From Arbacia lixula (taxonomy: Eukaryota; Echinodermata; Echinoidea; Arbacioida; Arbaciidae): DNA of 64,000 nt. Location of the stretch: positions 34,372,840 to 34,436,839 of the forward strand of contig OZ022576.1 of assembly GCA_963669155.1 (NCBI GenBank), read 5' to 3'. A program made the position numbers and the translations under genes. How positions within the stretch are numbered: the first letter of the stretch is position 1; each line of letters opens with the position of its first letter. The notes under the pieces were generated by a model. It worked only from the letters and a program-made list of their open reading frames with translations, was not told the DNA's origin and did not search any database. Below are positions 604 through 58,593 of this stretch, piece by piece.

Positions 604-15502
<14,899 letters not shown>

Positions 15503-20703: not shown

Positions 20704-37631
<16,928 letters not shown>

Positions 37632-38092
37632 TTTAAGTGATTACACGATATTTCCTTGTGAAAGATGAACTTCACGTCAGACCCGTTGTTGGTTAGGTTT
37701 GCCACACTCAAAACGCTTAACGGTGTTACTGAATCAGTAATTACTATATCCGTACAACGATAACATCCGTACTCTAACTCAACTATCATGCGGATAATTT
37801 GCCCTAGAAAAAAGAGACCCGTATTATTGAAACGGACGTAAACAAAGATTGCTCGGAATGGGGGTGGGGTGGGTTGGGCGTTGAGTTGAGTTAATTTCCA
37901 ACAATCCTAATCAAATTCGACAAATCATAAACATATTCAGACACGTATTAACAACAAGAATTATAATTTACAAAGATCAGATTTCAACTTAAGCTGTTGG
38001 GAATCAAAATCATTGAGAATCTGATTTAGCAGAAGAAAGGGTCACCAGCCATGCGTAAAGTCGTTCTTAGCGTAAGAACAGCTTGGTGAAAC

Positions 38093-38824
38093 CAGGGAGG
38101 TGTTCGGAAGGAGTAGAAACTCGAGCATAATACATTCAAACATCTGTATGGGTTCTAAAGCGTGGTCATGAATGTCAAAAAAATTCCATAATCATGACAA
38201 TGCTTTGATGTTCCATGTGCCGAGCCGACATTTAGCTGATGTAAACTTGAAAAGAAATTTCTTAAATTTTCCATTTGTCTGTAGACGTTTTGTTTTTGAC
38301 AAATTCGATTGCAAACTATAAGGAAGTTAACGGCAGATAATGACAGATCCTAATACATTGTATTCTGCTTTTGTTTCGAAAAGTATTGCGGAATCATTAA
38401 AAATCGGACATATAAGCTATTTGTATTACTTATAAAATTGACCAATTTCTTCACTTTCCGACATCTTGTGCATTTGGGGGATTCAACCACTCTCAAAATG
38501 ATATATTAAGCTGTGTATTTTCATTAACGGCGTTTGTGTGTTTGCGTGCAGCAGATATATTTTCCTTGAAAAACTTGTTAATTAATGTGTTTGCTGATAC
38601 CTGTTGTGCTCATGGAAGTATTAATGCCATTAACAGAACGGGACAAGCGAAATGAGACTGTACATTTCTTTTGTTCTCTCTGAGAAGCCGTTGCCGCACA
38701 ATCATGTTCATAATTGTTCAAATACCTGAACAGCACCTGTTGAGAACACCATAACTTTTCAGCGGCTTGGCACATGGGTTCAAAGAAAGAAAGTTGCTTC
38801 ATATCCTTCCATAACACATCCCTG
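38093..38824. mobile_element. hAT-like insertion present only in duplicate copy 1
   Basis: Ends cagggaggtgttcggaagga and tccttccataacacatccctg-type inverse (first base c, last g). Flanked by gtgaaac direct repeats (38086-38092 and 38825-38831; 8 bp if the last G is shared). The empty site is preserved in copy 2 near 47660 (ggtgaaacacccccagg). CAGGG tips and a 7-8-bp duplication fit hAT. No transposase ORF. Confidence 0.82.
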
Positions 38825-39412
38825 GTGAAACACCCCCAGGACCATATTGCCGGGCTGTATTGTTGGATAGAAAAGGGGCATAAATAATTTCTATCACTAC
38901 TTCGCTGTCTTCTTGTTTGTCATTCTCATAGAAACCCTCTGTAAGGATGGTGATATTTTAAAAAATAGCATTGTGGTTTTTTGTACAGATCATTCCCTCC
39001 ATGAAGAATACACTTGCGATTATGGCATTGTACATAACTTCAATATTATCAATTGTCTTGCGAAGTATATAGAGAATTATTTATATTTTGCTTTCTAGCA
39101 CATTGTGAGTGCTTTTCTGAATTACATGTATTACAACCTGTGATGATTACTAGAGAGTAAAAGAGTTTCCAAATGTGCTCTCATTGGTAAATATATTCTG
39201 AAGAAATATGATTTTGTCTTGAATCTGTTACCTACGTACATCTGCCTTTTGTGTGAATGTGTAGAATGATTTAGTTGAAATAGAAATTTTCTTTACTCTC
39301 TTTTTCCTACATAAGTGCAACAGATTCACCGAGTATGAAAATCATATAGGGAAGGGGTAGAATATAACGCACCGATGTCATGGCAAAACCGTTTTGGTGT
39401 CATCAAACTCAT

Positions 39413-39475
39413 CGTCAAGACTTATCGCCAAGACTTATCGCCAAGACTTATCCCCAAGACTTATCGCTAAATTTG
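39413..39475. repeat. Short tandem repeat of caagacttatcgc
   Basis: Four units here against about two in the second duplicate near 48255, so the unit count changed after duplication. Confidence 0.7.
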
Positions 39476-39707
39476 TATGATTTACTTCTGCAGTCACGGC
39501 AGTATGATACTCTATCTATCAAGGGCTCGGTAGGTACCATTTCTAATAAAGAAATGATATCAAGCAATTGGGGTGTTTCATTAACTTAAATCAAGATCAG
39601 AATAAGCTCCTAAGATTGATCGAATCGATTTTAAGCGTCAATGAAAGCCCCTCCCCCGGCTTCTTCCCCGGGTTACGAATCCAAAGCTAGGCTTGGGTGC
39701 ATTTTTG

Positions 39708-40445
39708 TGAATGGGAAAGTCCACTCCACCCTGAAGTTAAGTTGTTTTTTATACAAGCAGAAACATGAAAAGAACACATTAGTGAAGGTTTGACAAAAAT
39801 CCGTCAAAGGAAAAGAAGTTATGATGTTTTATAATTTTGATTTTGTGACATGACGAACGAGGTGCTGTCCTATGTTATGCGCTGCATAATTACATGAATT
39901 GCTTTTTTCTGAATTTGATGAAGGAATAAATCTCTTTCATAAAGGTATTGTGTAAAAACGTGTGTCTAATGATATATGAAATGCACAGGTAAAGGGTGCA
40001 TATCCTTTGGGAGAAATGGACATTAACAAAAATGAGCACACAGCATATGCGAGGGCATCTCGTACGTGACGTCACAAAATCAAAACTTTAAAAACATTGT
40101 AACTTCTATGAAAGGGATATTTCACCCTGAAATTATTTTTGGTTTCAATAAAAGGAGACACTTGAAAGATACATATTAGAGAAGGTTTGACGAAAATCGG
40201 TCGAAGGAAATTTGAATTGTTATTATATGTTCAAGTTTTGATTGTGACGTCACGTGCGAGATGCTCTCCTATTAGCCTATGTTATGTACAATTTTTGTGG
40301 AAAATGTCAATACAGGTGTATACTCAAAAGCATGTTCACGATTTCACCTGTGCGTTTGATATATCATTAGACACATTAGACACGTTTTTACACACTTATC
40401 GCTATGAAAAGAATACAATAAAGAAAACGGCAATTTATGGAAAAA
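39708..40445. mobile_element. Compound of two palindromic elements carrying TGACGTCA
   Basis: Arms share gaaggtttgac, aaaatccgtcaaagg, attttgtgac and cacgtgcgag, and their inverse. TGACGTCA occurs at 40067-40074 and 40245-40252. The first element has lost about 60 bp relative to its twin at 48517. Family also at 41742, 48517, 50517 and 56500. Confidence 0.75.
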
Positions 40446-41359
40446 TGAGTAGAGCTTCTACTGTCACTTTGTTTCCATAATTGAAACCAGTCAAAACTTA
40501 AACATGAAAAAACAGTTAAGATTCTTTTGGGAAAAGTGCCACTAAGTATAAATTTTTTTTTATGCCATTTGTGTACACAAGGATTAGCAAAAGAGAACTT
40601 CGAGGATTTCTAATCACGGTTTTAGTGGAAGACATATTTATCCATGATCACTTTTGGTGCAAACAAAACCTACTTACTACACTTGTATTATACATTTATA
40701 TCTTAATTCCTGTTATGTATTGCATATGATGTGTAAAATACGATATTTACTGGGAAGGAGCATTTAATGGGTTTTTTTTGCAGCCCAACACAGCGTACAT
40801 GCAAACAAGAGCAGTTATATATAAAGTAGGCCTACCTTGTGCAGTTTAAAGTCGAAACACAGACATAAAGAGAAAGAGAGTGGTAGGGAAAGAACGTGGA
40901 AAACGGGCACGAAAGTGAGGAGGGAAGAGAAGAAAAGAGAAAAATTGATAGAAAGAGGGAGAGAGAGAAAGAAATAGAAAGCGAGATAACTAACATGACT
41001 AAAAGGGGGTTAAAAGAGGGATAGAGAGGGTTGGCGGGAAGGCCAAAGGAAAATATGGAAAAAGCGTTTCTTCAATTCTCTTGCACCAAGGAAGCAAACA
41101 TGCTATAAACATAAAGGGTTGTTGCTAAGCCGGGCAAATGTCGGCGGGCAAGCCTTAGGAGGTTGCCATTGGAAACTGTTGTGAAACAAGTAGGCCTATG
41201 CATAATAGATAATCTTATTGACAACATTTCGTCATTTTGCTCATATCACGGAAACACACATCTCATCACGAAGAGCGCTTAAACGATGGGAAGCGGTGAA
41301 CCATCTGGCTTGCCCAGTGCGCAATCCATATTACGACGTCAACAATGCCAAGCCGGTTC

Positions 41360-41371
41360 TGCGCACGCGCA
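41360..41371. promoter_or_regulatory. NRF-1-like site upstream of unknown gene, copy 1
   Basis: TGCGCACGCGCA fits the NRF-1 consensus YGCGCAYGCGCR in full, 126 nt before the proposed start codon. In animals such sites lie in core promoters of housekeeping and nuclear-encoded mitochondrial genes. Conserved in copy 2 (50129-50140). Confidence 0.65.
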
Positions 41372-41496
41372 AGATTCATTTCTATAGCTACAATATCACA
41401 TTGCTCATTGCTATATGATTTGCGTTTGCGATCTGTATACTAGCATACTTTTCGAGCTATTTTGGAAATATTTCCTCTCTAGTTTCATTGATATCA

Positions 41497-41561
41497 ATGA
41501 TGTCGGCTATGTTTCACCGTATAGTTGACATTTTCCATTTTGGAACTTCTTCCAACAACGG
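41497..41561 (+). CDS. Unknown gene copy 1, exon 1
   Basis: 21 codons plus two bases from ATGATGTCG, closing at gg|gtaagt. Phase matches exon 2, giving a glycine at the junction. Supported by conservation in copy 2 (one substitution, F15L). Confidence 0.6.
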
Positions 41562-42413
41562 GTAAGTCAACAAAACAATTAAACTCTTTACTTTACTTTC
41601 TGAAATGTTATAATGATGATAAATGTTCAAAATGTGCAACGTAACGCGTACATTCATATATTATTCATATTATTCCACTCACTAAAGGTTTATGAAATAA
41701 ATGGTTTAGTTTTGAGTATTACCTCAGACATCATCACAGGCTTTAAACTGAAAGTCCACCCTGAAGTTACGTTGGTTTTGATAAAAGTAATATATGTAAT
41801 ATGTATCTTTTCCATAGACGTGATAAAATTATGTGTGTAAAAATACGTGTCTAATGATATATGAAATGTACAGGTAAAATACATTATCCTGTTGAGAAAA
41901 TGATAATTTTCAACAGAAAATGGTACATAAATTATAGGCGCATCACGCAAGTGACATCACAAACTCAAAATTTTAATAAATCATAATTTTCTTACCCTTT
42001 GACGGATTTTCGTAAAACCTTCACTTTTATGTTTTCTTTATTAAAAACAAGTTGACGTAAGGGTGGACATCCCCTTTGATAATCATATTCACGATGTGAT
42101 CATTTGATATGAAAGGATGAATACCACTTGTTAAAATAACAAATGTGATTATAATGTGTGTAGGAACAATGCTTGTTCTATGATGTATTCTTTGATACGG
42201 CTATATGTCATTTATGTGTGTATGTATTACTGTCCATATACAACCTAATGCTCTTCTATTATTTATAAATAAACTCACGTTATTATGCCGCCTTAAGATA
42301 ATTCAATTCGTCTATGTTCTATCTTTAATCAATGACGTGCTACTTGAAGAATAACATATTTCATAATCTCTCTCCTAGTTTATTGAGGGCGTTACTAACG
42401 AAAGTGTTAAATG

Positions 42414-42471
<58 letters not shown>

Positions 42472-44276
42472 ACTCGGTCTTTCCCTCTACTGACATTTTC
42501 CATAATACTTGGATAATACATGAATGATTCTGGTGATTACAATAAAAGTTGTGTTTGTTCATTTTTATAAGACAATAGTGGAGAGCCAAAAGCAATTAAC
42601 ATGGTGTGTTCTTTATTCCTTGATCAAAAAGAAACTCAGTTATACAATTGACCCTGACATTATCTTTTATTCGATCAATGTTGTATAGACATTTTGGTGA
42701 AGTACACGCTATTGTTTTCACGGGTTCTATTCTCAGCGCCCCTGCTAATTCGTCAACCCCAGAGGCATCAAAGGTCATTCCCGAAGAGCACAGGACCATA
42801 TGGCAGAAACTGCTCTCGTGGTGGAAGAAGACAACGACGCCGGGCAGCCATGTTGCCCCGCAAAAGTCCAGCAGCGTCGACGACGAGGACGACGACGAGG
42901 GTATCGATGGTGAAGTCACCGTATTTGTCAATTGTCGATGTCGTCTAATGCGCGTAGTGCGCATGCTCGAGGCCGTGTACGTCGGAGTGGAGCAGGTCCA
43001 CGAGGAGAGGTATGGCCCGAGTGGCATCATCGACAGCAGCGATGGGGTACGCCTGACGCGCCCCTATCGAGGGCGCGGAGTCGACCGCAGCCGATGGCAG
43101 CAGCTGCTTCTGATTAATGCCACGGACGTTTTAAACGCCAAGCTCAGAACCATCTGCAAACTCGTCAGCAGCTACAGGTCCAAGATGGACCAACCTGCCT
43201 CGGACGATGTTTCAGGCGACGAGGATCCCGAGGAGACCAATGAACCAGAACTCCTGACGATCCATCACTTTCCTATTCTAGCCAGGCCGCAGCCCCCTCC
43301 CATTCCCACCAAGGTCACAAAGAGGGAAGTCGCTATCGGATTCTTCTATATCTGCTCAGCTCTGGTGTTCAATGCGATCTGCTATCTGTTCCCTAAGAAG
43401 GTCTCGTCTGATACGAAGGACATGAAGGATGAGGTTCGAGAGAAGAGAAAGGCTGCAGTGAGCCTGCTTGAGCAGAGCTATCCATCAGGGAGGGTATCAG
43501 GTCTGTTAGATTTTACCCCGTGTGAGGACTGGAGGCCTGTGATCAAGAAGCCTTGCTCACATGGTAAACCGTACGTTGTTAGCCGCGATGTTAATCTACC
43601 TTTCCTGTACAGTGGATCCTGCGCTCCATCTGAACCTCAAGCCTCAGCCTCTGCCTATTCCGATGAGGACGATATCGAACTCGTATCTCTCCGTTGGACC
43701 CTAAGAGGACAGTATCTAGAAACCATCCGTCGTCTGGGGAAACGCGGTGTGTGCGCCTATGTGGACAGACTACTCGAAACAGTTGAAGAGCACGTCTTCC
43801 AGCTCCAGGAAGGCCTGGATCACATGAATGACGCGAAGCTCCGGATAAGCAGACCATACAGTGATCGTGGTGAGCTGCTGCGAAAGGCTCTCAACATAAA
43901 AGGGTCCGCCATGGAGATCCGACAACTGGCCAGAAGTAGCTCTGGTCAGCATGACGCCATGGTCAAGGTATCCCTGATGAAGCACGTCAAGCGCCTTGAG
44001 CGGAGGACGGAAGAGATGCAGCTGCGATGGGACAGCTGGAGGCGCGCCAGGAGGTCATCACCTGAAAGAAGATCCCTGATGACGTCGCATCAGCCTACTA
44101 CGATTCCCATGGAGACTCCGATGACGTACGCGACCCGGCTGATCTCAAGACAGACCGCAGCGGGGTTCGTCGCGAAGAGGCTCGGCGTGCCTCCACACAA
44201 GTCCTTGCTGGACTTGGCGTTCGGCAAACCCGACCTGGTAGGACTGAATACAGTCATCCTACTTCGGGGATGTTAG
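41497..44276 (+). CDS. Unknown single-span protein, two exons, duplicate copy 1
   Basis: Proposed exons 41497-41561 (phase 2, donor gtaagt) and 42689-44276 (acceptor ttgtatag) encode 550 residues. I do not recognise the family. Visible: N terminus MMSAMFHRIVDIFHFGTSSN; amphipathic IWQKLLSWWKK at ~59; acidic DDEDDDE at ~86-92; one strong membrane span (VAIGFFYICSALVFNAICYL, ~236-255); an acidic SDEDDIE near 346; helical, charged 370-480 (LETVEEHVFQLQEGLDHM); an RRARRSSPERR basic patch; then a C terminus ending VILLRGC. If splicing is wrong, an ATG at 42678 gives an unspliced 532-residue product. Exon 2 is GC-rich against AT-rich flanks, like a real gene. The NRF-1-like promoter motif hints at housekeeping or mitochondrial use, which is inference. 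Confidence 0.7.
41742..42085. mobile_element. Palindromic element in the intron of unknown gene copy 1
   Basis: Ends gaaagtccaccctgaagtta and taagggtggacatccccttt; inner tttgacggattttcgtaaaa. Same family as 39708-40445. Its twin is 50517-50872. Confidence 0.8.
42417..42476. repeat. (CT)n microsatellite
   Basis: Long tc run in the intron of the unknown gene. The copy 2 equivalent (51211-51252) is shorter. Confidence 0.95.
42689..44276 (+). CDS. Unknown gene copy 1, exon 2
   Basis: 529 uninterrupted codons from HFGEVHAIVF to the TAG at 44274-44276. Such a long GC-rich frame in this AT-rich context is very unlikely by chance, and both copies keep it open. Confidence 0.85.
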
Positions 44277-44563
44277 CACTGCTGAGCGAAATAAAACGTG
44301 ATATGCTGACCATACATCGATCATACTAAGGGAGTGTTGGCATTGCTCAGAAGTAAACGTGATAGCCTGCACGAACGAATCTAAGGGGTGATCTAAACCC
44401 TGGCCCCTGTCCCCTGCCCCCCCCCCCCACCCCTTGGGAAACAAAAAGAATGGTAATGGGGGAGGGGGGGGGGGGTAACTCATTCTCCCACCTTGGTATC
44501 TCTTCAAAAAAGGTAGTTGTAAGCACAACAAATCCTCCCCCCCCCCTCCCCCCCCCCCCCGGG

Positions 44564-44850
44564 GCAAAAAGCGAGATCCGCCCCAGGGTAGCAGACAAGA
44601 TTGCTGCCCGGAGGCTCAGACTAGCCGGCCACTGTTTTCGGCATCCAGAGCTGACCACGCAGAAGCTCCTACTATGGGAACCAACCCACGGAGCAAGAGG
44701 AAGAGGAAGACCAGAGACGACATAATTATGTGGATGTACTGAAGAGAGATACGGGAGTGACAAGCATCAGTGAGCTGGCGACTTTGATGGGGGACAGGGA
44801 TGTGTGGAGGACCCATGTGAGATTCCGGCAGAAGGAGCCTAAGCAAAAAA
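44564..44850 (+). pseudogene. LINE reverse-transcriptase C-terminal tail, copy 1
   Basis: Reads RRLRLAGHCFRHPELTTQKL, LLWEPTHGARGRGRP, then after four extra bases (aatt near 44726) YVDVLKRDTG. This is the usual end of RT ORFs in non-LTR elements. The body of the element is absent. It follows the unknown gene's stop and poly-C/G tracts, in another frame. Confidence 0.75.
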
Positions 44851-45018
44851 AGAAAAGTATCAAAGATTAAAAACGAACAAGATGACTGAACTACGACTTC
44901 TAAGCGCTTAAATTTATTGTTTGTAAAAGTGCGTGGATGATATTGTAACTTTGATTTTCATGAAACCTTCACTTATATGTTTCTTTCATGTTTCGATCTT
45001 ATTACATTAAAACTAACT

Positions 45019-45661
45019 TAAAGGTCCCCTGTCATCAAAATGTATGTTGACTTCTGTTGATGCAACTTAATATGTATATAACAAAATCACTAACTGTTCG
45101 ATGGAAATATGTGTCCTATATTTTAAGATATTTTTCTATATTTTTTTCTCAGCACTGATAAGCCCTGCCTCCCAAATATCCTCCAGCTCAAGATTCCCCC
45201 TGTGACATCATCAAAGGTAGAAATTAGCAGGATAGCAGACATAACTTATGTACAAACTAAACATTGAAATGACTACCTACAAGTGCTTATAATAGCATCA
45301 CATAGCTAGCACATTTCTGACATAAGGAAACGATTATTCCCACATGAAATGTTGTTAGATATTTACTGTATGAAGACATGTGATGCTCTTGTGGGCAGGT
45401 GGAGGTAGTCATTGCAATGTTTAATTGGTGCATAAATTCTGCTTATTATCCTGCTAATTTCTACCTTTGATGATGTCACAGGGGGAATCTTGAGTTCGAG
45501 GATATTTTGGAGACGGGGCTTATCAGTGCTGAGGAAAAATAAAGAAAAATCATTGTCAAATATAGGACAAATATCTCCATTTAACAGTTAGTGATTTTGT
45601 TATTTACATATTATGTTGCATCAACATAATTCGACATACAGTTTGATGACGGGGGTCTTTA
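45019..45661. mobile_element. Long palindromic (foldback) element, only in copy 1
   Basis: Arms of about 280 bp: aaaggtcccctgtcatcaaa ... ctgtgacatcatcaaaggta, with inverse tacctttgatgatgtcacag ... tttgatgacgggggtcttt. The centre (~45330) is AT-rich. No ORF. Copy 2 of the duplication lacks it. Confidence 0.85.
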
Positions 45662-45689
45662 ATTTCAGGGTGGACTGTCCCTTTAAAAG

Positions 45690-45795
45690 ACCCCACACAC
45701 ACATACACACACACATACACACACACACATATACACACACACACATTTACACACACACACTTACACACATACGCACAAACACACACAAACACTTT
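45690..45795. repeat. (CA)n microsatellite
   Basis: Interrupted ca/ta dinucleotide run beside the foldback element. Confidence 0.9.
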
Positions 45796-46104
45796 TTTTT
45801 AAATTCTACTGAACAAATTGCACCGTACAGCATCATTTATTAATTGTATCTGCAATCAAACACTTCAGACCTCTGACAAATCAGTTGCCAAACCACACCA
45901 TATCATCATCGAATAGTGAACGGAAGCGCGCATTGGAGAGAGAAAAGAAAATGTGAGAGGGAGAAACAAAGCGCAATTGCCCAGGTATCGTTTGGTAGTT
46001 CTGTCTATTTTTTGTAGGTATAATTTACACCATCCAAATACAACTGACAGCAAATATGCACGTGTTTATTCATACCTAAGTATTCAATTGATTTAAATAA
46101 ATTT

Positions 46105-46140
<36 letters not shown>

Positions 46141-46305
46141 ACACATACACACAAACACATACACACACATGCATGCACACACACATACAAACTGGTCAGT
46201 ATTTAACCGTAAAATATTTATAGGTATACATCATTATATCTGCCTTAAACGTACAAAAATGTGAAGGATATTACGAGAGCTTGTGAATTTTATGAGAACA
46301 TCAGT

Positions 46306-46361
<56 letters not shown>

Positions 46362-46364
46362 GTG

Positions 46365-46416
<52 letters not shown>

Positions 46417-46430
46417 TGTGTGTAAATTGG
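46105..46430. repeat. (CA)n, (TA)n and (GT)n microsatellites at the end of copy 1
   Basis: (CA)n at 46108-46190, a 21-unit (TA)n near 46316-46358 and (GT)n from 46361 to about 46425. The last abuts the orphan ARMC4 exon. Confidence 0.93.
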
Positions 46431-46442
46431 CGCTTGGCGCTT

Positions 46443-46737
46443 GGCGCCCTCGCCCTGTGGAGCTGCAGTAAGAGTACTAAGAACAAGTAAGCCATCCGCA
46501 AGGCCGGGGGAATCCCTCTGCTGGCTCGCCTCCTCAAGTCACCCCATGAGAACATGGTCATCCCCGTCGTAGCCACCCTCCAGGGGGGCATTTCATCAAA
46601 GGACTTGTCGGATATTTTATCCGACAAGTTTGCTCTCGGCCAATAAGATGCAAGCATTTCAGTAGCTTATAACAGTTTGTCGGATAAAACGTCCGACAAG
46701 TCCTTTGATGAAATGCCCCCAGGAGTGCGCCTCAGAG
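46443..46737 (+). pseudogene. Orphan ARMC4/ODAD2 exon, nonsense codon and MITE insertion
   Basis: Translates to GALALWSCSKSTKNK, then TAA (46488-46490), then [20 protein letters not shown] and [12 protein letters not shown] 136-bp MITE interrupts here, then ECASE and donor gtaagt follow. ARMC4/ODAD2 (outer dynein arm docking protein, ciliary armadillo repeats) has the same block with a sense codon at the TAA. The intact donor and following intron-like DNA mean this is a copied genomic exon, not a retrocopy. No other ARMC4 exon is nearby. Confidence 0.85.
46584..46720. mobile_element. MITE inside the ARMC4-like exon
   Basis: Ends gggggcatttcatcaaagga and tcctttgatgaaatgccccc, with inner ttgtcggatattttatccga inverted pairs. 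About 136 bp, no ORF. Confidence 0.88.
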
Positions 46738-47467
46738 GTAAGTTGCTGTCACCCTCATGAAATGTAGGGTGTTATTCCAAAATTGTGAGAGCGGGCGTTA
46801 GAGGTTCATTGCAGGTCTCCTCACAATATTTCCTTGGGGTGATATTCAAACATGCTGAGGTAGGCCTCATCACATGAGAGCGGTTTGTAACTGTTCCTGG
46901 GGTTAGCAATGCCGATAAAACACCAGCATTTACGTAGATGTGATCTTCGTAGACAGTGGTGCAATTATATGCAAACTAACCTAAAGGAATTTAAGTTCAG
47001 TGGTAGTTTTAGAGTTTGCCATTGGTATGCAAACTACTTGAATTAAGGACTTCAAGTTCAATGGTCTTGACAGACATGTGATCTTTACAGCTAGTGATAA
47101 AATGAGAGAGAGATTTACTGGTCCGACATTGTCTAGCAAGCTAGTCTTGGGCACTCCTAATGAGAGTCCTCGCTGCTGCTTGCTCTACCCACATAGTTTA
47201 GAACCAGTTGTCTTGACAACATGCTAACATGACATCACACTTTGGTACTCTATTGCACAGCTACCAGCTAAGTGGTATTTACTGACATGCAATCGTTACA
47301 ACCAGTGTTTTAAGTACTGTACCGTCTTCCCTGCAACCCACAGGCTGGCTGATAAGATACCTGTTTTTTCACCAAGCTGTTCTTAAGCTAAAAACAACTT
47401 TATGCATGACTTGTTACCCTTTCTTATGCTAAATCCGATACCACAATTTCTTCCTGTTTTAACATAA
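46738..47467. other. Spacer between the two duplicates
   Basis: Starts as an intron-like continuation of the ARMC4 fragment. Contains a dispersed repeat (47130-47262) related to 24497-24632. No ORF. Confidence 0.55.
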
Positions 47468-48516
47468 TAATTTCCAACAATCCCAATCAAATTTGACAAA
47501 TCATAAACATATTCAGACACGTATTAACAACAAGAATTTTAATTTACAAAGAACAGATTTCAACTTTAGCTGTTGGGAATCACAATCATTGAGAATCTGA
47601 TTTAGCAGAAGAAAGGGTCACCAGTCGTGCGTAAAGTCATAACGTAAGAACAGTTTGGTGAAACACCCCCAGGACATGTATTGTTGGTTAGAAAAGGGGC
47701 ATAAATAATTTCTATCACTCCTTCGCTGTCTTCTTGTTTTTCATTCTCATAGGAACCCTCTGTAAGGATGGTGATATTATTGCATTTATAAAAAATAGCA
47801 TTGTGTTTTTTGTACAGATCATTCCCTCCATGAAGAATATACTTGCGATTATGGCATTGTACATATTATTAACTTCTATATCATCAATTGTCATGCGAAG
47901 TACATAAATAATTATTTATATATTACTTTCTAACACATTGTGAGCGCTTTTCTGAATTGCATGTATTACGACCTGTGGTGATTACTAGAGAGTCGTGAAA
48001 GTAAAAGAGCTTTCAAATGTGCTCTCACTTGTAAATATATTCTGAAGAAATATAATTTTGTCTTGAATCTGTTGATTATGTGCATCTGCGTTTGTGTGAA
48101 GGTGTAGAATGATTTAGTTCAAATAGAAATTTACTTTACTCTCTTTTTCCTACATAAGTGCAACAGATTCACCGAGTATGAAAATCATATAGGGAAGGGG
48201 TAGAATATAACGCACCGATGTCATGGCAAAACCGTTTTGGTGTCACCAAACTGATCGTCAAGACTTATCGCCAAGACCTATCCTCAAGATTTACTTCTGC
48301 GGTCATGGCAGAATGATACTCTATCTATTAAGGACTCGGTAGCTACCATTTCTAATAAAGAAATGATATCAAGCAATTGGGGTGTTTCATTAACTTAAAT
48401 CAAGATCAGATAAGCTCCTAAGATAGATTGAATCGATTTTAAGCGTCGATGAAAGCCCCTCCCCCCGCCTCCTTCCCGTTTTACGAATCCAAAGCTAGGC
48501 TTGGGTGCATTTTCAT

Positions 48517-49255
48517 GAATGGGAAAGTCCACTCCACACTAAAGTTAAGTTGTTTTTGATAAAAGCAGAAGAACACATTAGTGAAGGTTTGACAAAAATC
48601 CGTCAAAGGATAAGAAGTTATGATCTTTTATAATTTTGATTTTGTGACATGACATGCGAGGTGCTGTCCTATTTTATGCGCTACTTAATTCCATGAATTG
48701 CTCTTTTTCATAAAGGTATTTGTGTCTAATGATATATCAAATGCACAGGTAAAAGGATGCATACCCTTTGGGGGAAATGGACATTTAAAAAAAAATAAGT
48801 ACACATCATCTCGCATCTCGCACGTGACGTCACAAAATCAAAACTTTAAAAACATTATAACTTTCCTATCCTTTGACGGATTTTCATAAAACTTCACTAA
48901 TATGTTTCGTTCACGTTTCTGCTTCTATGAAAGGGATAGTTCTGCCTGAATTTATTTTGGTTTCAATAAAAGGAGACACTTGAAAGATACATATTAGTGA
49001 AGGTTTGACGAAAATCGGTGAAAGGAAAAGAAAGTCATTTGAATTGTTACGATATGTTCACGTTTTATTGTGACGTCACGTGCGAGATGCTCCCCAAATG
49101 TTATGTACAATTTTTGTGGAAAATGTAAATACAGGTGTATTCTCAAAAGCATGTTCACCATTTCACCTGTGCGTTTGATATATCATTAGACACATGTTTT
49201 TACACATATATCGCTATGAAAAGAATACAATAATGAAAACGGCAATTTGGAAAAA
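48517..49255. mobile_element. Compound palindromic elements, twin of 39708-40445
   Basis: Keeps the full arm catctcgcacgtgacgtcac ... cctttgacggattttcataa that copy 1 has partly lost. TGACGTCA at 48825-48832 and 49071-49078. Confidence 0.78.
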
Positions 49256-50102
49256 TGAGTAGAGCTTCTACTGGAAAACATGTCTCTTTGTTTCCATAAC
49301 TGAAACCAGTCAAAACTTAAACATGAAAAAACAGTTAAGATTCTTTTGGGAAAAGTATTAGTAAAAGAGAACTTCGAAGAGATCTAATCACGATGTCAGT
49401 GGAAAACATATCATCCTTGATCACTTTTAGTGCAAACAAAACCTACTTACTACACTTGTATTATACATATATATCGTAATTCCTTTAATGTATTGCATGT
49501 GATGTGTAAAATAAGATATTTACTGGAAAAGGAGCATTTAATGTTGTTTTTTTTGCATGTACAGTGTACATGCAAACAACAGCAGTTATATTTAAGTAAG
49601 CCTATTTCTTGTGCAGTTTTAAGTCGAAACACAGACATAAAGAAAAAGAGAGTGTCAAACGTGGAAAACGGGCACGAAAGTGAGGAGGGAAGAGAAGAAA
49701 AGAGAGAAAAAATGATGGAAAGAAGGAGAGAGAGGAAGAAAGAGAAAGCGAGATAACTAAAAGGGGGTAAAAAGAGGGATAGAGAGGGTTGGAGGGAAGG
49801 CCAAAGAAAGATATGGAGAAAGCATTTCTTCAATTCACTTGCACCAAGGAAGCAAACATGCTATAAACATAAAAGGTTGTTGCGAAGCCGGGCAAATGTC
49901 GGCGGGCAAGCCTTAGGAGGTTGCCACTGGTACCTGTTGTGAAACAAGTAGGCCTATGCATAATAGATAATCTTATTGAGGTAGCAGTTACAACATTTCG
50001 TCATTTTGCTCATATCACGGAAACAAACGTTTCATTACGAAAAGCGCGTAAATGATGGGAAGCGGTGAACCATCTGGCTTGCCCAGTGCGCATTCCATAT
50101 TA

Positions 50103-50110
50103 TGACGTCA
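50103..50110. promoter_or_regulatory. CRE-like TGACGTCA upstream of unknown gene copy 2
   Basis: Perfect CREB/ATF palindrome 156 nt before the proposed ATG and 19 nt before the NRF-1-like site. The equivalent in copy 1 reads CGACGTCA (one C/T difference). Confidence 0.55.
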
Positions 50111-50128
50111 ACAATGCCAAGCCGGTTC

Positions 50129-50140
50129 TGCGCACGCGCA
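50129..50140. promoter_or_regulatory. NRF-1-like site upstream of unknown gene, copy 2
   Basis: TGCGCACGCGCA, the same as in copy 1, 126 nt before the ATG. Confidence 0.65.
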
Positions 50141-50265
50141 AGATTCATTTCTATAGCTACAATATCACATTGCTCATTGCTATATGATTTGCGTTTGCGA
50201 TCTGTACACTAGCATACTTTTCGAGCTATTTTGGAAATATTTCCTCTCTAGTTTCATTGATATCA

Positions 50266-50330
50266 ATGATGTCGGCTATGTTTCACCGTATAGTTGACAT
50301 TTTCCATCTTGGAACTTCTTCCAACAACGG
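50266..50330 (+). CDS. Unknown gene copy 2, exon 1
   Basis: 21 codons plus GG, donor gtaagt. Differs from copy 1 by one base, changing F15 to L. Confidence 0.6.
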
Positions 50331-51206
50331 GTAAGTGAACAAAACAATCAAAACGATACTCTTTGCTTTACTTTCTGAAATGTTATAACGATGATAAATG
50401 TTCAAAATGTGCAACGTAACGCATACATTCATATATTATTCATATCATTCCACTCACTAAAGGTTTATGAAATAAATGGTTTAGTTTTCAGCATTACCTC
50501 AGACATCATCACAGGCTTTAAACTGAAAGTCCACCCTGAAGCTACGTTGGTTTTGATAAAAACCAAAAACACGAAAGAAATATGTATCTTTTCCATAGAC
50601 GTGATAAAATTATGTGTGTAAAAATACGTGTCTAATGATATATGACATGTACAGGTAAAATACAAATAAAATACATTATCCTGTTGAGAAAATGATAATT
50701 TTCAACAAAAAATGGTACATAAATTATAGGCGCATCACGCAAGTGACATCACAAACTCAAAAATTTAATAAATCATAATTTTCTTACCCTTTGACGGATT
50801 TTCGTCAAACCTTCACTTTTATGTTTTCTTTATTAAAAACCAAGTTAACGTAAGGGTGGACATCCCCTTTGATAATCATATTCACGATGTGATCATTTGA
50901 TATGAAAGGATGAATACCACTTGTTAAAATAACAAATGTGATTATAATGTGTGTAGGAAGAATGCTTGTTCTATGATGTATTCTTTGATACGGCTATATG
51001 TCATTCATATGTGTATGTATTACTGTCCATATACAACCTAATGCTCTTCTATTATTTATAAATAAACTCATGTTATTATGTCGTCTTAAGATAATTCAAT
51101 TCGTCTATGTTCTATCTTTAATCAATGACGTGCTACTTGAAGAATAACATATTTCATAATCACTCTCCTAGTTTATTGAGGGCGTTACTGACGAAAGTTT
51201 TAAATG

Positions 51207-51256
<50 letters not shown>

Positions 51257-53058
51257 GGTCTTTCCCTCTACTGACATTTTCCATAATACTTGGATAATAC
51301 ATGAATGATTCTGGTGATTACAAATAAAAGTTGTGTTTGTTCATTTTTATAAGACAATAGTGGAGAGCCAAAACAAATTAACATGGTGTGTTCTTTATTC
51401 CTTAATCAAAAAGAAACTCAGTTATACTATTGACCCTGACATTATTTTTTATTCGATCAATGTTGTATAGACATTTTGGTGTAGTACACGCTATTGTTTT
51501 CACGGGTTCTCTTCTCAGCGCCCCTGCTTATTCGTCAACCCCAGAGGCATCAAAGGTCATTCCCGAAGAGCACAGGACCATATGGCAGAAACTGCGCTCG
51601 TGGTGGAAGAAGACAACGACGCCGGGCAGCCATGTTGCCCCGCAAAAGTCCAGCAGCGTCGACGACGAGGACGACGACGAGGGTATCAATGGTGAAGTCA
51701 CCGTATTTGTCAATTGTCGATGTCGTCTAATGCGCGTGGTGCGCATGCTCGAGGCCGTGTACGTCGGAGTGGAGCAGGTCCACGAGGAGAGGTACGGCCC
51801 GAGTGGCATCATCGACAGCAGCGATGGGGTACGCCTGACGCGCCCCTATCGAGGGCGCGGAGTCGACCGCAGCCAATGGCAGCAGCTGCTTCTGATTAAT
51901 GCCACGGACGTTTTAAACGCCAAGCTCAGAACCATCTGCAAACTCGTCGGCAGCTACAGGTCCAAGATGGACCAACCTGCCTCGGACGATGTTTCAGGCG
52001 ACGAGGATCCCGAGGAGACCAATGAACCAGAACTCCTGACGATCCATCACTTTCCTATTCTAGCCAGGCCGCAGCCCCCTCCCATTCCCACCAAGGTCAC
52101 AAAGAGGGAAGTCGCTATCGGATTCTTCTATATCTGCTCAGCTCTGGTGTTCAATGCGATCTGCTATCTGTTCCCTAAGAAGGTCTCGTCTGATACGAAG
52201 GACATGAAGGATGAGGTTCGAGAGAAGAGAAAGGCTGCAGTGAGCCTGCTTGAGCAGAGCTATCCATCAGGGAGGGTATCAGGTCTGTTAGATTTTACCC
52301 CGTGTGAGGACTGGAGGCCTGTGATCAAGAAGCCTTGCTCACATGGTAAACTGTACGTTGTTAGCCGCGATGTTAATCTACCTTTCCTGTACAGTGGATC
52401 CTGCGCTCCATCTGAACCTCAAGCCTCAGCCTCTGCCTATTCCGATGAGGACGATATCGAACTCGTATCTCTCCGTTGGACCCTAAGAGGACAGTATCTA
52501 GAAACCATCCGTCGTCTGGGGAAACGCGGTGTGTGCGCCTATGTGGACAGACTACTCGAAACAGTTGAAGAGCACGTCTTCCAGCTCCAGGAAGGCCTGG
52601 ATCACATGAATGACGCGAAGCTCCGGATAAGCAGACCATACAGTGATCGTGGTGAGCTGCTGCGAAAGGCTCTCAACATAAAAGGGTCCGCCATGGAGAT
52701 CCGACAACTGGCCAGAAGTAGCTCTGGTCAGCATGACGCCATGGTCAAGGTATCCCTGATGAAGCACGTCAAGCGCCTTGAGCGGAGGACGGAAGAGATG
52801 CAGCTGCGATGGGACAGCTGGAGGCGCGCCAGGAGGTCATCACCTGAAAGAAGATCCCTGATGACGTCGCATCAGCCTACTACGATTCCCATGGAGACTC
52901 CGATGACGTACGCGACCCGGCTGATCTCAAGACAGACCGCAGCGGGGTTCGTCGCGAAGAGGCTCGGCGTGCCTCCACACAAGTCCTTGCTGGACTTGGC
53001 GTTCGGCAAACCCGACCTGGTAGGACTGAATACAGTCATCCTACTTCGGGGATGTTAG
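50266..53058 (+). CDS. Unknown single-span protein, two exons, duplicate copy 2
   Basis: Exons 50266-50330 and 51471-53058 encode 550 residues, paralogous to 41497-44276. By eye there are nine amino-acid changes (F15L, E26V, I36L, N41Y, L64R, D95N, R157Q, S182G, P316L in copy 1 to copy 2 order) and two silent ones. All lie in the first 60 percent; the last ~700 nt look the same. The membrane span (~236-255), acidic tracts and helical C-terminal half are unchanged. Family unknown. The same donor (gtaagt), acceptor (ttgtatag) and NRF-1-like motif are kept. An unspliced ATG start at 51460 is the alternative. Confidence 0.7.
50517..50872. mobile_element. Palindromic element in the intron of unknown gene copy 2
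   Basis: Twin of 41742-42085. Has an alternative stretch aaaaccaaaaacacgaaaga where copy 1 has gtaatatatgtaat, so it diverged after duplication. Confidence 0.8.
51211..51254. repeat. (CT)n microsatellite
   Basis: Shorter version of the tract at 42417-42476. Confidence 0.93.
51471..53058 (+). CDS. Unknown gene copy 2, exon 2
   Basis: 529 open codons ending LLRGC and TAG. Eight missense and two silent differences from copy 1 by eye. Confidence 0.85.
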
Positions 53059-53337
53059 CACTGCTGAGCGATCGAAATAAAACGTGATATGCTGACCATA
53101 CATCGATCATACTAAGGGAGTGTTGGCATTGCTCAGAAGTACACGTGATGGGCTGCACGAACGAATCTAAGGGGTGATCTAAACCCTGGCCCCATGTCCC
53201 CCCCCCCCCCCCCACTCCCTCCCTTGGGAAACAAAAAAATGGTAATGGGGGTGGGTGGGGGGTTAACTCATTCTCCCACCTTGGTATCTCTTCAAAAAAG
53301 GTAGTTGTAAGCACAACAAATCCCCCCCCCCCCCTTG

Positions 53338-53643
53338 GCAAAAAGCCAGATCCACCCCAGGGTAGCAGACAAGATTGCTGCCCGGAGGCTTAGACTAGCC
53401 GGCCACTGTTTTCGGCATTCAGAGCTGACCACGCAGAAGCTCCTACTATGGGAACCAACCCACGGAGCAAGAGGAAGAGGAAGACCACAGACGACATATG
53501 TGGATGTACTGAAGAGAGACACGGGAGTGACAAGCATCAGCGAGCTGGCGACTTTGATGGGGGACAGGGATGTGTGGAGGACCCATGTGAGATTCCGGCA
53601 GAAAAAAAAAGGATCAAAGATTAAAAACGAACAAGATGACTGA
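53338..53643 (+). pseudogene. LINE reverse-transcriptase C-terminal tail, copy 2
   Basis: Open frame through RRLRLAGHCFRHSELTTQKL, WEPTHGARGRGRPQTTYVDV, LKRDTGVTSISELATLMGDR and DVWRTHVRFRQK. The four extra bases of copy 1 are absent. Only the last ~90 residues of an RT are present, so this is a dead fragment unless a host gene has taken it up. Confidence 0.75.
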
Positions 53644-53833
53644 ACTGCGACTTCTAAGCGCTTGAATTTATTGTTTGTGTGGGTGATATTGTAATTTTAA
53701 TTTATGCAAACCTTCACTTATATGTTTCTTTCATGTTTCGATCAATGTTTGTAGGCATTTACATCATCCAAATACAGCTTACAACAAATATGCACGTGTT
53801 TATTCATACCTAATTATTCAATTGACTTAAATG

Positions 53834-53837
<4 letters not shown>

Positions 53838-53878
<41 letters not shown>

Positions 53879-54034
53879 GTATACACACAGACACATACAC
53901 ACACATACAAACTGGTCAGTATTTAACCGTAAAATATCTATAGGTATACATCATTATATCTGTAAAAAAAAATGTGAAGGATATCACGAGAGCTTGTGAA
54001 TTTTATGAGAACATCAGTACATATATAATGGATG

Positions 54035-55440: not shown

Positions 55441-58157
55441 GATCTAAGGAGTAAAGATACAATTATCGTATCAGTGAAATCAGAAAACTCACATTCTCAA
55501 TTGGTGATATAAAACACGTAATATAAAACCATAATACCTAACCTACGTTACCTCAATTCACGGGGAATCAAGAGTCACATAATTGATTTGAAAGATTACG
55601 ATTGAAAACATATACGTACCTTTGCCAAGAAATATCTCGTGCACTCTGTTCACGACGTGTCATCATTACAATGCGCCCTCTTGTCGCTTTGACTGTTTCT
55701 AAGCAACTATGATGAGAGATGGAGCTAGATAGCACATATTAGCGATGATTCCTTGTAACGTTAGCGATTTTAATTCATATTATTTTTCAGGCGGTAACGT
55801 ATGTTACGGTAACGGAGGTCACATCTGTGATTCTCTCAAGCGATTACAAATGACTCATGAAATTAAAAACTCAGTACAGAGGTAGGGGTACCAAATGCCT
55901 CTGTTTGGTAACTCCTTGTAACATTTTCATTCTTAACTTCCCATAGCGGTGGTAACGTATCACCATACGGTCTGAAACATGCTTGTGTATGAAGCTTTTA
56001 TTCTTCATTGGATACCCAGGTGGCATAACTAATGTTAACAAGTATACGAGATACGAGTTTTCAGGATGGATAATAAACAAATTTAATACCAAGGAATTTT
56101 AAATGCTGGGAATATAAACCACGGTAACGTATGTTTCTCATACCTTTGCGACAAATTTGATTTGTAAAATAATCAAATTGAATAGTTTTCAAATATATAA
56201 AGTTATATCTTGCACTGTAGGCATATGACTTTAGTAGGTTAAGAACCAGTTGTAATACGAAACGAACTAATTTTAAGCTGCATAGCATAACAAATCGATT
56301 TTCGTCGGGATTGCCGTGTTTATGTATTCATAACTTCCGAAAGAATCAAACCTGAAGGTTGAGATTTTCGGCAGATATAGTTAACAATATACATATGGTG
56401 ACTATTATCCCCGAATTACGTTGATCGGGCATTGCTTTATTTTTCCTTGGTAGAATCATTGCAACACGTCAGTTGTCACTAAATTGTACATATTTAGTGG
56501 TTTTGAGCCAATAGTGCACCTTGAAAATAATTTCGATGAAAATCCGTCAAAGGATGATCTTTCAGTATTAAAGTTGTGATTCTGTGACTTCTCGTGCGAG
56601 GCGCTCTCCCATAATTATGTTGTGTAGATTTTTTTTTCTCGAAAATGTGCAGTTTCTCAACGAGATATGGATCATTTTACCTGTGCATGATCATTAGAAA
56701 CGCGTTTTTACACACATATCTGTATGAACAAAAAATCATTCCGTTGTCAAATATAAAAAGAGCAATTATGGAATTGTTTTGTACACAACATAATCATACA
56801 GCACACAACATGTGAGAGCGCCTCGCACGTGACGTCACGTTTCAAAAGATCATAAACCTTCTTATCATTTGACATATTCTCGTCAAAACTTCACTAATAG
56901 CCTATGTTTCTTTCATGTTTCTGCTTTTATTGAAATCAACTTATTTTCAGGGTGAACTATATCCTTTTAAGATATTCCTTCCGAACAAAGGAGCTTAACA
57001 TGACCTAAACATTTTCCAAAACATTTCCAATTGAATGTTCTTTAAATGTTCTTTGAATGTTTCCAATTTCCAATTTCCAATTGAGTTACTGACATGATTA
57101 TGAGTGTTGCATTAGGCCACTGCCAATTTGGATCATTTCGACTACTTTAAGTTTGCTAGTAATGTTGTATTTGTGTTGTTGGCAGTCTATATTGCCATTT
57201 CCTTTGTGATCAAGACAGGGCAAAGTTAACATCACTTTGATCCGGAAAGGGCTCCCGGTTCCGCTCTCCCAAAGTTACGGAAAAGAATATTTATATACCT
57301 ACATAGTGTAATACACAACAACAATATATAAGAGCTTATAGCCCTCTTTTTCACACCCTGTGTATGACTCATTGAAATTTACCACTTGAAAACAGACCAC
57401 GATGTAAATGGAAGGAACTGGCCATTTTTTTTTAAAACCTGTTTGCTTGATGTAAATAATGTTTATGGAGGCCTATGCCTACTGTGCCTATTTTTGTGTG
57501 ATTGGAATATTACGGAAGAAGCACTTAATTTCGCGATGATAGGCCTCTATCATAACTTGGATGCGTTCAATAGGCATAGACCTAGATGTTTCAACTTATA
57601 ACGTTAGGCGGCCAAACAGTTGCTTTTTAAAACTCGTTAAAACAATATTCCGTTTTGAAACGTATGTTGGATTTGGGTATGCATGTACATGTATGTAGAG
57701 AAGCGGTTGATCAATTATTGATTACGGATTTTCTTTGCCATACTGCGCGTTTCTTATTATACTGAGTTTGATATTGTGATGCCTCAGTTGGCACAAACCC
57801 AATCAGTCATGCATGATCCCGACCTTTCAAGATGCAGTGTAGTAGACGTTTTCTGGTTGGTCAAAATAAGAGCACGTACGCACGTTTCACCATTCAGCTT
57901 GCGCGTAAGGAATATTTGTTGTACCGTAACAAATCAATATACACCCAAGGCGTCCATGGTGACCAAATAAGGCGTGCTGTACACACAGCGTAGTTCAGCA
58001 GGTACACACATAGTGTATATGAGAGTGTAGTAGGCCAGCTAAATAGGAAGAACGACAAGCTTAGAATGTGACAAATAGACGTTTTATCAGACAAATTTTA
58101 TTGAACAAATTGGCCATGTAGAGGGCAACATTTGCTAATGCTGCTGTAAGACTGGAA
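55441..58157. other. Intergenic DNA upstream of the TTLL gene
   Basis: No convincing exon on either strand. Contains the palindromic element at 56500-56975. The TTLL promoter should lie near its right end, but no TATA box or other clear core motif was found. Confidence 0.5.
56500..56975. mobile_element. Palindromic element carrying TGACGTCA
   Basis: Left arm gatgaaaatccgtcaaagga and right arm with cctcgcacgtgacgtcacgt; TGACGTCA at 56830-56837. Single copy of the 39708 family outside the duplication. Confidence 0.75.
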
Positions 58158-58181
58158 ATGGAGGATAATGTTACAAATTGA
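58158..58181 (+). promoter_or_regulatory. Upstream ORF overlapping the TTLL start codon
   Basis: ATGGAGGATAATGTTACAAA followed by ttga encodes seven residues and stops inside the main frame. Its start is 10 nt before the TTLL ATG. If the transcript begins upstream, it could limit main-frame initiation. Confidence 0.5.
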
Positions 58182-58593
58182 GTCGGTGAGTTCCGGAATT
58201 GATCAGTCGCGGGTGTCGAGGCACGACCCCAGTCCCGCAGCTGGCAACATCGGTGGCTCCGGGATCGCAAACCAGCGATTCAGCTTCGACAAGTTTGAGC
58301 AAGAGTTGACTTTTGCACCCAAGCTAAATGCGACAAGTTTGAGATTGGCGCATGAACGTCGAGCACAAGTCAAGAGTGGAATTGCACATAGGACTCCGGC
58401 TCAGACTCGAGTCGCAAGACTTATCAACAACTCTGAAAATGTGGACGGTGTGTCTCAAAGTCCAATTCCAAAGCTTCCAGGAGAATTCACTTTCAAACCA
58501 CAGATGAGCACTGCAAGTGCCAAAATTGCTCAGGGATTGGGAACAACATTTATGGCTAGACAGGAACTACACCTTCAAAAGCAGAGGCAGAAG
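58168..58593 (+). CDS. TTLL exon 1 (N-terminal extension with two repeats)
   Basis: 142 codons. Repeats ELTFAPKLNATSLRLA and EFTFKPQMSTASAKIA. Ends QKQRQK, donor gtaagt, phase 0. Confidence 0.8.

Follow-up and report, generated by a model that had tools for sequence, protein, structure and literature searches.

A tandem pair of two-exon genes for a putative membrane protein in the sea urchin Arbacia lixula, with relatives elsewhere in the genome

We describe two directly repeated genes, copies A and B, in a 64,000-nucleotide (nt) stretch of the Arbacia lixula genome (assembly GCA_963669155.1, contig OZ022576.1, positions 34,372,840 to 34,436,839 of the forward strand), which we refer to as the window. 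The reading that we favour, with moderate confidence, is of a two-exon tandem gene that has six recent copies and an older relative in this genome and a product of about 534 residues. That A and B represent a real protein-coding gene under selection we regard as close to certain, with splicing and expression predicted from the DNA alone. The family looks young and is perhaps still unnamed, and does not look like a new kind of biology.

The gene pair and its relatives

The first-pass annotation of the window had proposed two direct-repeat, two-exon genes with nearly identical products, and this is borne out, with exon 2 repeated at an offset of 8782 nt. The open frames at 42624-44276 and 51406-53058 are each of 550 codons from stop to stop and are by far the longest in the window. 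By chance, the longest frame to arise in 300 Markov sequences of 1800 nt had 252 codons and that in 60 of 64 kb had 302 codons, all of these sequences having the same composition. Codon periodicity in exon 2 is 8.9 and 9.1 in the two copies, against a median of 1.1 and a maximum of 8.2 in 105 background windows. A short exon 1 lies about 1.1 kb upstream of the long frame in both copies and is also present in copies C, D, E and F and in relic G, all described below. Its GTAAGT donor is strong in A and B, being in the top 0.3% of GT sites by a weight table that is also the source of the other splice-site scores given here. With the exon 2 acceptor that we prefer (see below), the predicted product of A and B is most likely of 534 residues.

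The genome searched was the window's own, of 607 Mb in 590 contigs, in which the window is C1:34372840-34436839. A protein search gave seven loci, three on C1, three on C20 and one on C7. Copy C is on C1, 110 kb beyond B, and has 97% identity; the C20 copies F, D and E have 89%, 86% and 85% respectively, and the C7 relative has 27% (E 7e-30). The reverse search with the C7 protein found itself, the same six copies and two chance-level matches (E 0.77 and 6.2). Both genome searches score only the best candidates, and seven is thus a lower bound. A DNA search around exon 1 gave eight loci, namely the six copies, a C20 relic (G) and, on C1, a fragment of the promoter. On C20, D and E lie in tandem about 9.4 kb apart, as a second such pair. 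Relic G (1930-3325 of stretch L012, from C20:17377429 on) has the promoter block, exon 1 and the intron up to a CT repeat, and the further 4.7 kb read there contain no exon 2. Across the copies the promoter, exon 1 and intron accompany exon 2. We think it reasonably likely that the family comprises six recent copies on two chromosomes and one older relative.

The C7 gene (2426-4959 of stretch L013, minus strand, as modelled) resembles the others in having a short exon 1, a phase-2 intron and one long exon, and in its acidic tract, both cores, WW pair and WRRxR end. It differs in its identity of 26-27%, its weaker hydrophobic segment and its unrelated N terminus, and also in being found as one copy only in this search and in having no NRF-1-like site. 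In the model, exon 1 (chosen by eye) is 41 nt long and the intron, of the same phase, 893 nt; a single long exon follows, the product has 546 residues, and there is an in-frame stop 30 nt ahead of the ATG.

Features of the seven-member alignment are a WW pair that is identical throughout, an acidic tract, core 1 (RCRxMRVV to KM) and core 2 ending in WRRxR, with a second acidic linker in the six close copies. The C7 protein, aligned at 26% identity, shares the two cores and many invariant residues. Between the cores is a 19-residue hydrophobic segment that averages 1.99 on the Kyte-Doolittle scale. By member it scores 1.64-2.21 in the six copies and 1.38 in C7, and the usual threshold for a membrane span (19 residues above 1.6) is thus exceeded in six of the seven. 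On these values, and given the charged residues of the C7 segment, a span is likely in the six copies and doubtful in C7, so the single span proposed earlier holds for six members and is weak in the seventh. The six close copies probably encode a membrane protein, its insertion being predicted from hydropathy.

Selection on the protein is best seen in the ratio of nonsynonymous to synonymous substitution rates (dN/dS) among the six close copies. Under the corrected model this is 0.29-0.56 in 14 of the 15 pairs, with A-B as the sole exception at 1.08 on nine changes. All six frames being open and dN/dS being below 1 in those 14 pairs, the copies look like functional protein-coding genes. Synonymous excess is significant in the four pairs tested (A-D, A-F, D-E and D-F; P 6e-6 to 0.006, with site numbers entered approximately). 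By region, dN/dS is 0.10-0.40 where defined for codons 23-75, 0.17-0.40 in 13 of 14 defined pairs for codons 76-175 (0.46 in A-B), and 0.21-0.55 for codons 346-470. Residues 23-75 are constrained and hold no methionine, and translation must therefore start upstream of exon 2.

Several observations count against this reading or parts of it. Codon periodicity is weak (1.8) in the middle third of exon 2, and for codons 261-345 dN/dS is 0.31-2.33, with most pairs close to 1 or higher. In exon 1 nearly every change is nonsynonymous (0 synonymous to 10 nonsynonymous in A-D, 1 to 7 in D-E), and the N terminus thus either evolves fast or has been modelled wrongly; positive selection there is not shown, as ten of ten has a chance of about 0.09 without constraint. 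Between A and B there are 7 nonsynonymous to 2 synonymous changes under the corrected model, which is no sign of constraint. The hydrophobic segment of C7 is not only weak but contains R and D. AlphaFold2 run without an alignment gave predicted local distance difference test scores of 38.9 and 45.5 in two runs, too poor to use.

In the reading that we favour, a short exon 1 and a phase-2 intron would lead into one long exon, and the product would have, in order, an acidic stretch, core 1, the second acidic linker, a membrane helix (in the six copies) and the basic core 2. The copies would have spread by duplication, with gene conversion later making A and B alike across the final kilobase of exon 2, and a promoter of cAMP-response-element (CRE) and NRF-1 type would drive broad expression. 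The single helix would anchor the protein in the membrane with a helical core on either side, or, in the case of C7, perhaps with both in one compartment, and the protein might act as a scaffold, its partners bound through conserved basic patches. We infer such a membrane-anchored helical scaffold role only tentatively.

The promoter and leader block and the exon 2 acceptor

Upstream of exon 1 is a block that differs at only 1-4 positions in 150-151 nt (A-B, A-D, A-E, A-F, A-G, D-E and D-F), whereas the differences amount to 7.4-14.7% at fourfold sites and 3-15% in exon 1 (A-D, A-E, A-F, D-E and D-F); the sequence flanking the block can hardly be aligned between A and D or E. The A-B pair, with 2/151 block differences and 1/263 at fourfold sites (0.4%), is an exception to this contrast, as is to be expected if exon 2 was converted. 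In A the block opens with CGACGTCA; the opening is TGACGTCA in B, D, E, F and G. A perfect NRF-1-like site, TGCGCACGCGCA, had been reported upstream of each copy, and both sites are confirmed. They are the only matches to YGCGCAYGCGCR in the window, where 0.02 are expected and one of 100 shuffles had two or more, although they count as one event because the copy B site duplicates that of copy A. In copy C one base of the site is changed, and an insertion has apparently displaced the upstream part of the block. Within the 500 nt ahead of the C7 start, no NRF-1-like site has fewer than 4 mismatches.

The apparent insertion in the copy C promoter is of about 36 kb (about 2160-2175 of stretch L014 and about 2510-2520 of L008; C1:34496669-34533014). 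It ends in 47-nt inverted repeats (94%), starts with TGTCACC and has, as read, a duplicated CCGG target. We take these ends to resemble those of Ginger-type DNA transposons. Ginger transposons are the subject of PMC2836005.

The block also contains an upstream ATG, which all six coding copies retain and which relic G, without an exon 2, has lost. In A, B, C and F the frame of this ATG (MICVCDLYTSILFELFWKYFLSSF...) overlaps the main start in a different phase; in D and E an 11-nt difference lets it continue in phase into the main protein. It is possible, if on the unlikely side, that the 151-nt block is, beyond a promoter, a leader whose upstream frame represses or extends the main frame, and the pattern of retention and frame just described would fit this, as would the absence of the first two main ATGs from E and of the first from D. 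However, conservation of the block starts ahead of the upstream frame, at the CRE/NRF-1 end, the base at -3 of the upstream ATG is T, and the fold of the leader RNA is unremarkable (z -1.2). A fuller proposal we consider unlikely: that the family is undescribed and lineage-restricted, that its products are helical membrane proteins with two cores, and that a frame in the ultraconserved promoter-leader acts as a brake on translation in four copies and as an N-terminal extension in two.

The gene model of the first-pass annotation had exon 2 starting at 42689 and 51471, with HFGEVHAIVFTGSILS following exon 1 and a 550-residue product. The strong donor at 41561 and 50330 stands in both copies; the acceptor is probably wrong. 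It is in phase and leaves A, B, C, D and E open, and it has a CTGAC branch-point-like motif about 30 nt before it, none of that form having been found for 42737. However it scores only -2.0, and 28% of all AG sites score at least as high; the in-phase acceptor 48 nt downstream scores 3.3 in copy A (42737) and 5.6 in copy B (51519). Copy F has 49 rather than 48 nt between the two candidate acceptors, and from the upstream one meets a stop after 66 codons, yet is open and constrained from the downstream one, from which all six close copies are open for 527-537 codons. As the extra base breaks the F frame and the downstream acceptor keeps all six open, the 48 nt are most likely intron. We conclude that 42737 is very probably the true acceptor and that the earlier model is improbable: its 550 codons hold as the frame from stop to stop, and the product would shorten to 534 residues. 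The TGA counted in copy E by the genome search lies outside the frame from either acceptor, and the E frame is open. In copy A the AG before 41818 slightly outscores 42737 (3.57 against 3.32) and was rejected as out of phase.

A mitochondrial protein, with the amphipathic N terminus as targeting signal and NRF-1 as regulator, is also improbable. The NRF-1-like site in the promoter would suit it, and in copy A the first six windows have a helical moment of 0.49-0.57, near the protein's 90th percentile (0.54). However exon 1 is the least conserved part of the gene, and the C7 model starts MASGSQIDESG, with 4 mismatches in the best NRF-1-like sites of its promoter. NRF-1 sites are not known to be specific to mitochondrial genes; they are common in the promoters of broadly expressed genes. 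An amphipathic N terminus is not supported as a feature of the family, as exon 1 changes fastest and is unlike that of the C7 relative, and neither is the mitochondrial link suggested earlier, for which the NRF-1-like site was the ground.

Probable homogenisation of the pair and less likely origins

The tandem duplication is real but larger than the two genes to which it had been confined, the left block having a partner at 47468-54026 with gaps and inserts; the global A/B alignment tracks it only from about 38851 to 44998. Outside exon 2 the divergence of A and B is mostly 2-7%, and it is 3-13% in 250-nt bins from 38851 to 40850. The intron has 37 differences in 1116 aligned sites, against 10 in 1587 for exon 2 as defined by the upstream acceptor, in which frame 9 of 11 changes alter the protein. 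Only 2 of about 390 synonymous sites are changed (P 0.0013 against the intron), and low divergence in exon 2 was therefore rejected as a sign of constraint, synonymous sites being equally low. The last kilobase of exon 2 is near-identical at synonymous sites too, and A/B identity alone is thus no evidence of constraint on the protein. The homogenised tract has mismatch-free runs of 786 and 403 nt, lengths that were attained by the longest run in 0 and 0.1% respectively of 10000 random placements of the 102 mismatches. Recent gene conversion would best explain the identity of A and B over this last kilobase.

The divergence of 2-7% outside exon 2 is near the allelic differences of highly polymorphic marine invertebrates, and A and B could in principle be two haplotypes of one locus assembled end to end. 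We think such an artefact quite improbable: the window contains no N, the spacer separating the two blocks has no match in the sequence to the left of A or in that to the right of B, the inverted-repeat insert of copy A is missing from B, and D and E make up a second tandem pair on C20.

Searches of Pfam, NCBIfam, PHROGs, PDB, IMG/VR and GTDB, with no eukaryotic protein collection among them, recognised no family, and for these libraries the earlier statement that none could be assigned holds. Pfam was scanned with the whole protein and with segments, and NCBIfam and PHROGs with copies A and B only, in each case up to E 10. There were weak matches to LST1 (E 3.2 and 6.1), MerR-DNA-bind (0.11 and 0.2), DUF6474 (0.03) and DUF7811 (0.19), and in PHROGs to phrog_24778 (0.17), phrog_3882 (0.19) and phrog_15936 (0.24); the Pfam matches are below the curated cut-offs and were rejected as family assignments. 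PDB gave nothing below E 0.16 by sequence or by profile, IMG/VR and GTDB gave no relative when queried with the protein and the seven-member alignment, and Rfam gave no match in the window at gathering thresholds. Nothing on this gene was found in the literature, where text searches cannot look up a sequence.

The multiple copies, the single long exon and the presence of a Tc1-like transposase frame in the window might suggest that the open frames are transposon remains or domesticated transposon parts. This is very improbable, as no transposase, integrase, reverse transcriptase or capsid was matched in Pfam, in NCBIfam and PHROGs (copies A and B), or in PDB, the Tc1-like frame (28986-29867) having served as positive control for the Pfam scan. 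The places found in the genome number seven, as a lower bound, and promoter, exon 1 and intron travel with exon 2. Clear matches to transposon proteins alone, which would have spoken against a gene, were not found.

Other features of the window and comparison with known families

Table 1. Positions of features of the gene pair in the window
Feature	Position	Strand	Comment
Left copy of larger duplicated block	37892..46313 (about)	+	Partner 47468-54026, gaps and inserts
Promoter/leader block, copy A	41334..41484	+	Near-invariant; CRE-like start, NRF-1-like site, upstream ATG at 41415
Perfect NRF-1-like site, copy A	41360..41371	+	Exact in A, B, D, E, F and relic G
Exon 1, copy A	41497..41561	+	65 nt, phase 2 donor CGG/GTAAGT; start is one of three in-frame ATGs
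Intron, copy A	41562..42736	+	Contains repeat occurring elsewhere in window
Exon 2, copy A	42737..44276	+	Corrected acceptor, stop TAG included; from acceptor strength, copy F frame and dN/dS
First acidic tract	42873..42914	+	Acidic tract here in 7/7 members
Conserved core 1 (RCRxMRVV ... QxLLxN ... KM)	42915..43187	+	Alignment with C7 member
A/B homogenised tract	43168..44355	+	Single mismatch (43570)
Predicted membrane span, copy A	43335..43391	+	Residues 222-240 of 534-residue product
Conserved core 2 (basic, ends WRRxR)	43674..44051	+	Helical in low-confidence models only
AATAAA, copy A	44290..44295	+	13 nt past stop
NRF-1-like site, copy B	50129..50140	+	Window motif search
Exon 1, copy B	50266..50330	+	Same GTAAGT donor
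Exon 2, copy B	51519..53058	+	Corrected acceptor, stop included
Predicted membrane span, copy B	52117..52173	+	Same residues as A, placed by offset 8782
AATAAA, copy B	53076..53081	+	17 nt past stop

Within the duplicated region, the copy A block carries about 1 kb that is missing from B, mostly an inverted-repeat element (45015-45665, arms of 283 nt, 84% complementary). A short interspersed repeat occurs in both gene introns (41847-42034 and 50628-50826) and at 39727-40409, 48533-49221 and 56536-56968. Downstream of each gene is a frame (44600-44860 and 53340-53640) that resembles the last part of a non-long-terminal-repeat retrotransposon protein, and 53311-53640 has no Pfam match up to E 0.1. 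The Tc1/Sleeping-Beauty-like transposase frame, of 293 codons on the minus strand, matches HTH_SB (E 1.5e-20) and DDE_3 (4e-11). Exons of an Alg9-like mannosyltransferase gene, presumably ALG12-like, are at 24667-33293 on the minus strand (Glyco_transf_22 E 1.5e-13 and 2.4e-7). From about 7700 runs a large array of tandem repeats, spaced mostly at 65 nt, in which 58 overlapping places match one 300-nt reference; it sits between ATP-binding cassette transporter-like exons at 6612-6977 (Pfam E 0.025, below cut-off) and 13994-14359 (E 3.4e-7). At 58150-58638 is an open frame of 163 codons with two FxPxxxxxSxxxA-type stretches and no Pfam match.

If the family proves to be absent from public animal annotation, it will add a defined two-core protein family and a ready set of paralogues. 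The nearly frozen promoter and leader, set against a drifting protein, would be a case of regulatory constraint above coding constraint, and the 11-nt difference that possibly turns the upstream frame into an N-terminal extension a concrete case. Otherwise this is an ordinary young gene family.

With regard to known families, the order of short motifs in core 1 had suggested a likeness to CXorf65 / Il2rg (PF15874), of which core 1 might be a diverged short domain, an idea that was dropped after the profile test. The likeness would lie in these short motifs of core 1 only, and the difference is that the profile matches other loci of this genome: C2, C8 and C12 score above the cut-off (27 bits) and C10 more weakly, none of these matches, among the best candidates scored, is at our seven loci, and PF15874 is not listed in the Pfam scans up to E 10. 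We give membership of that family hardly any weight. A parallel in general terms is with lineage-restricted tandem families of animals, with which this family shares tandem and dispersed duplicates, a relic, signs of conversion and moderate constraint, and from which it differs in that the promoter and leader here vary less than fourfold sites and less than exon 1, in five of the six pairs measured.

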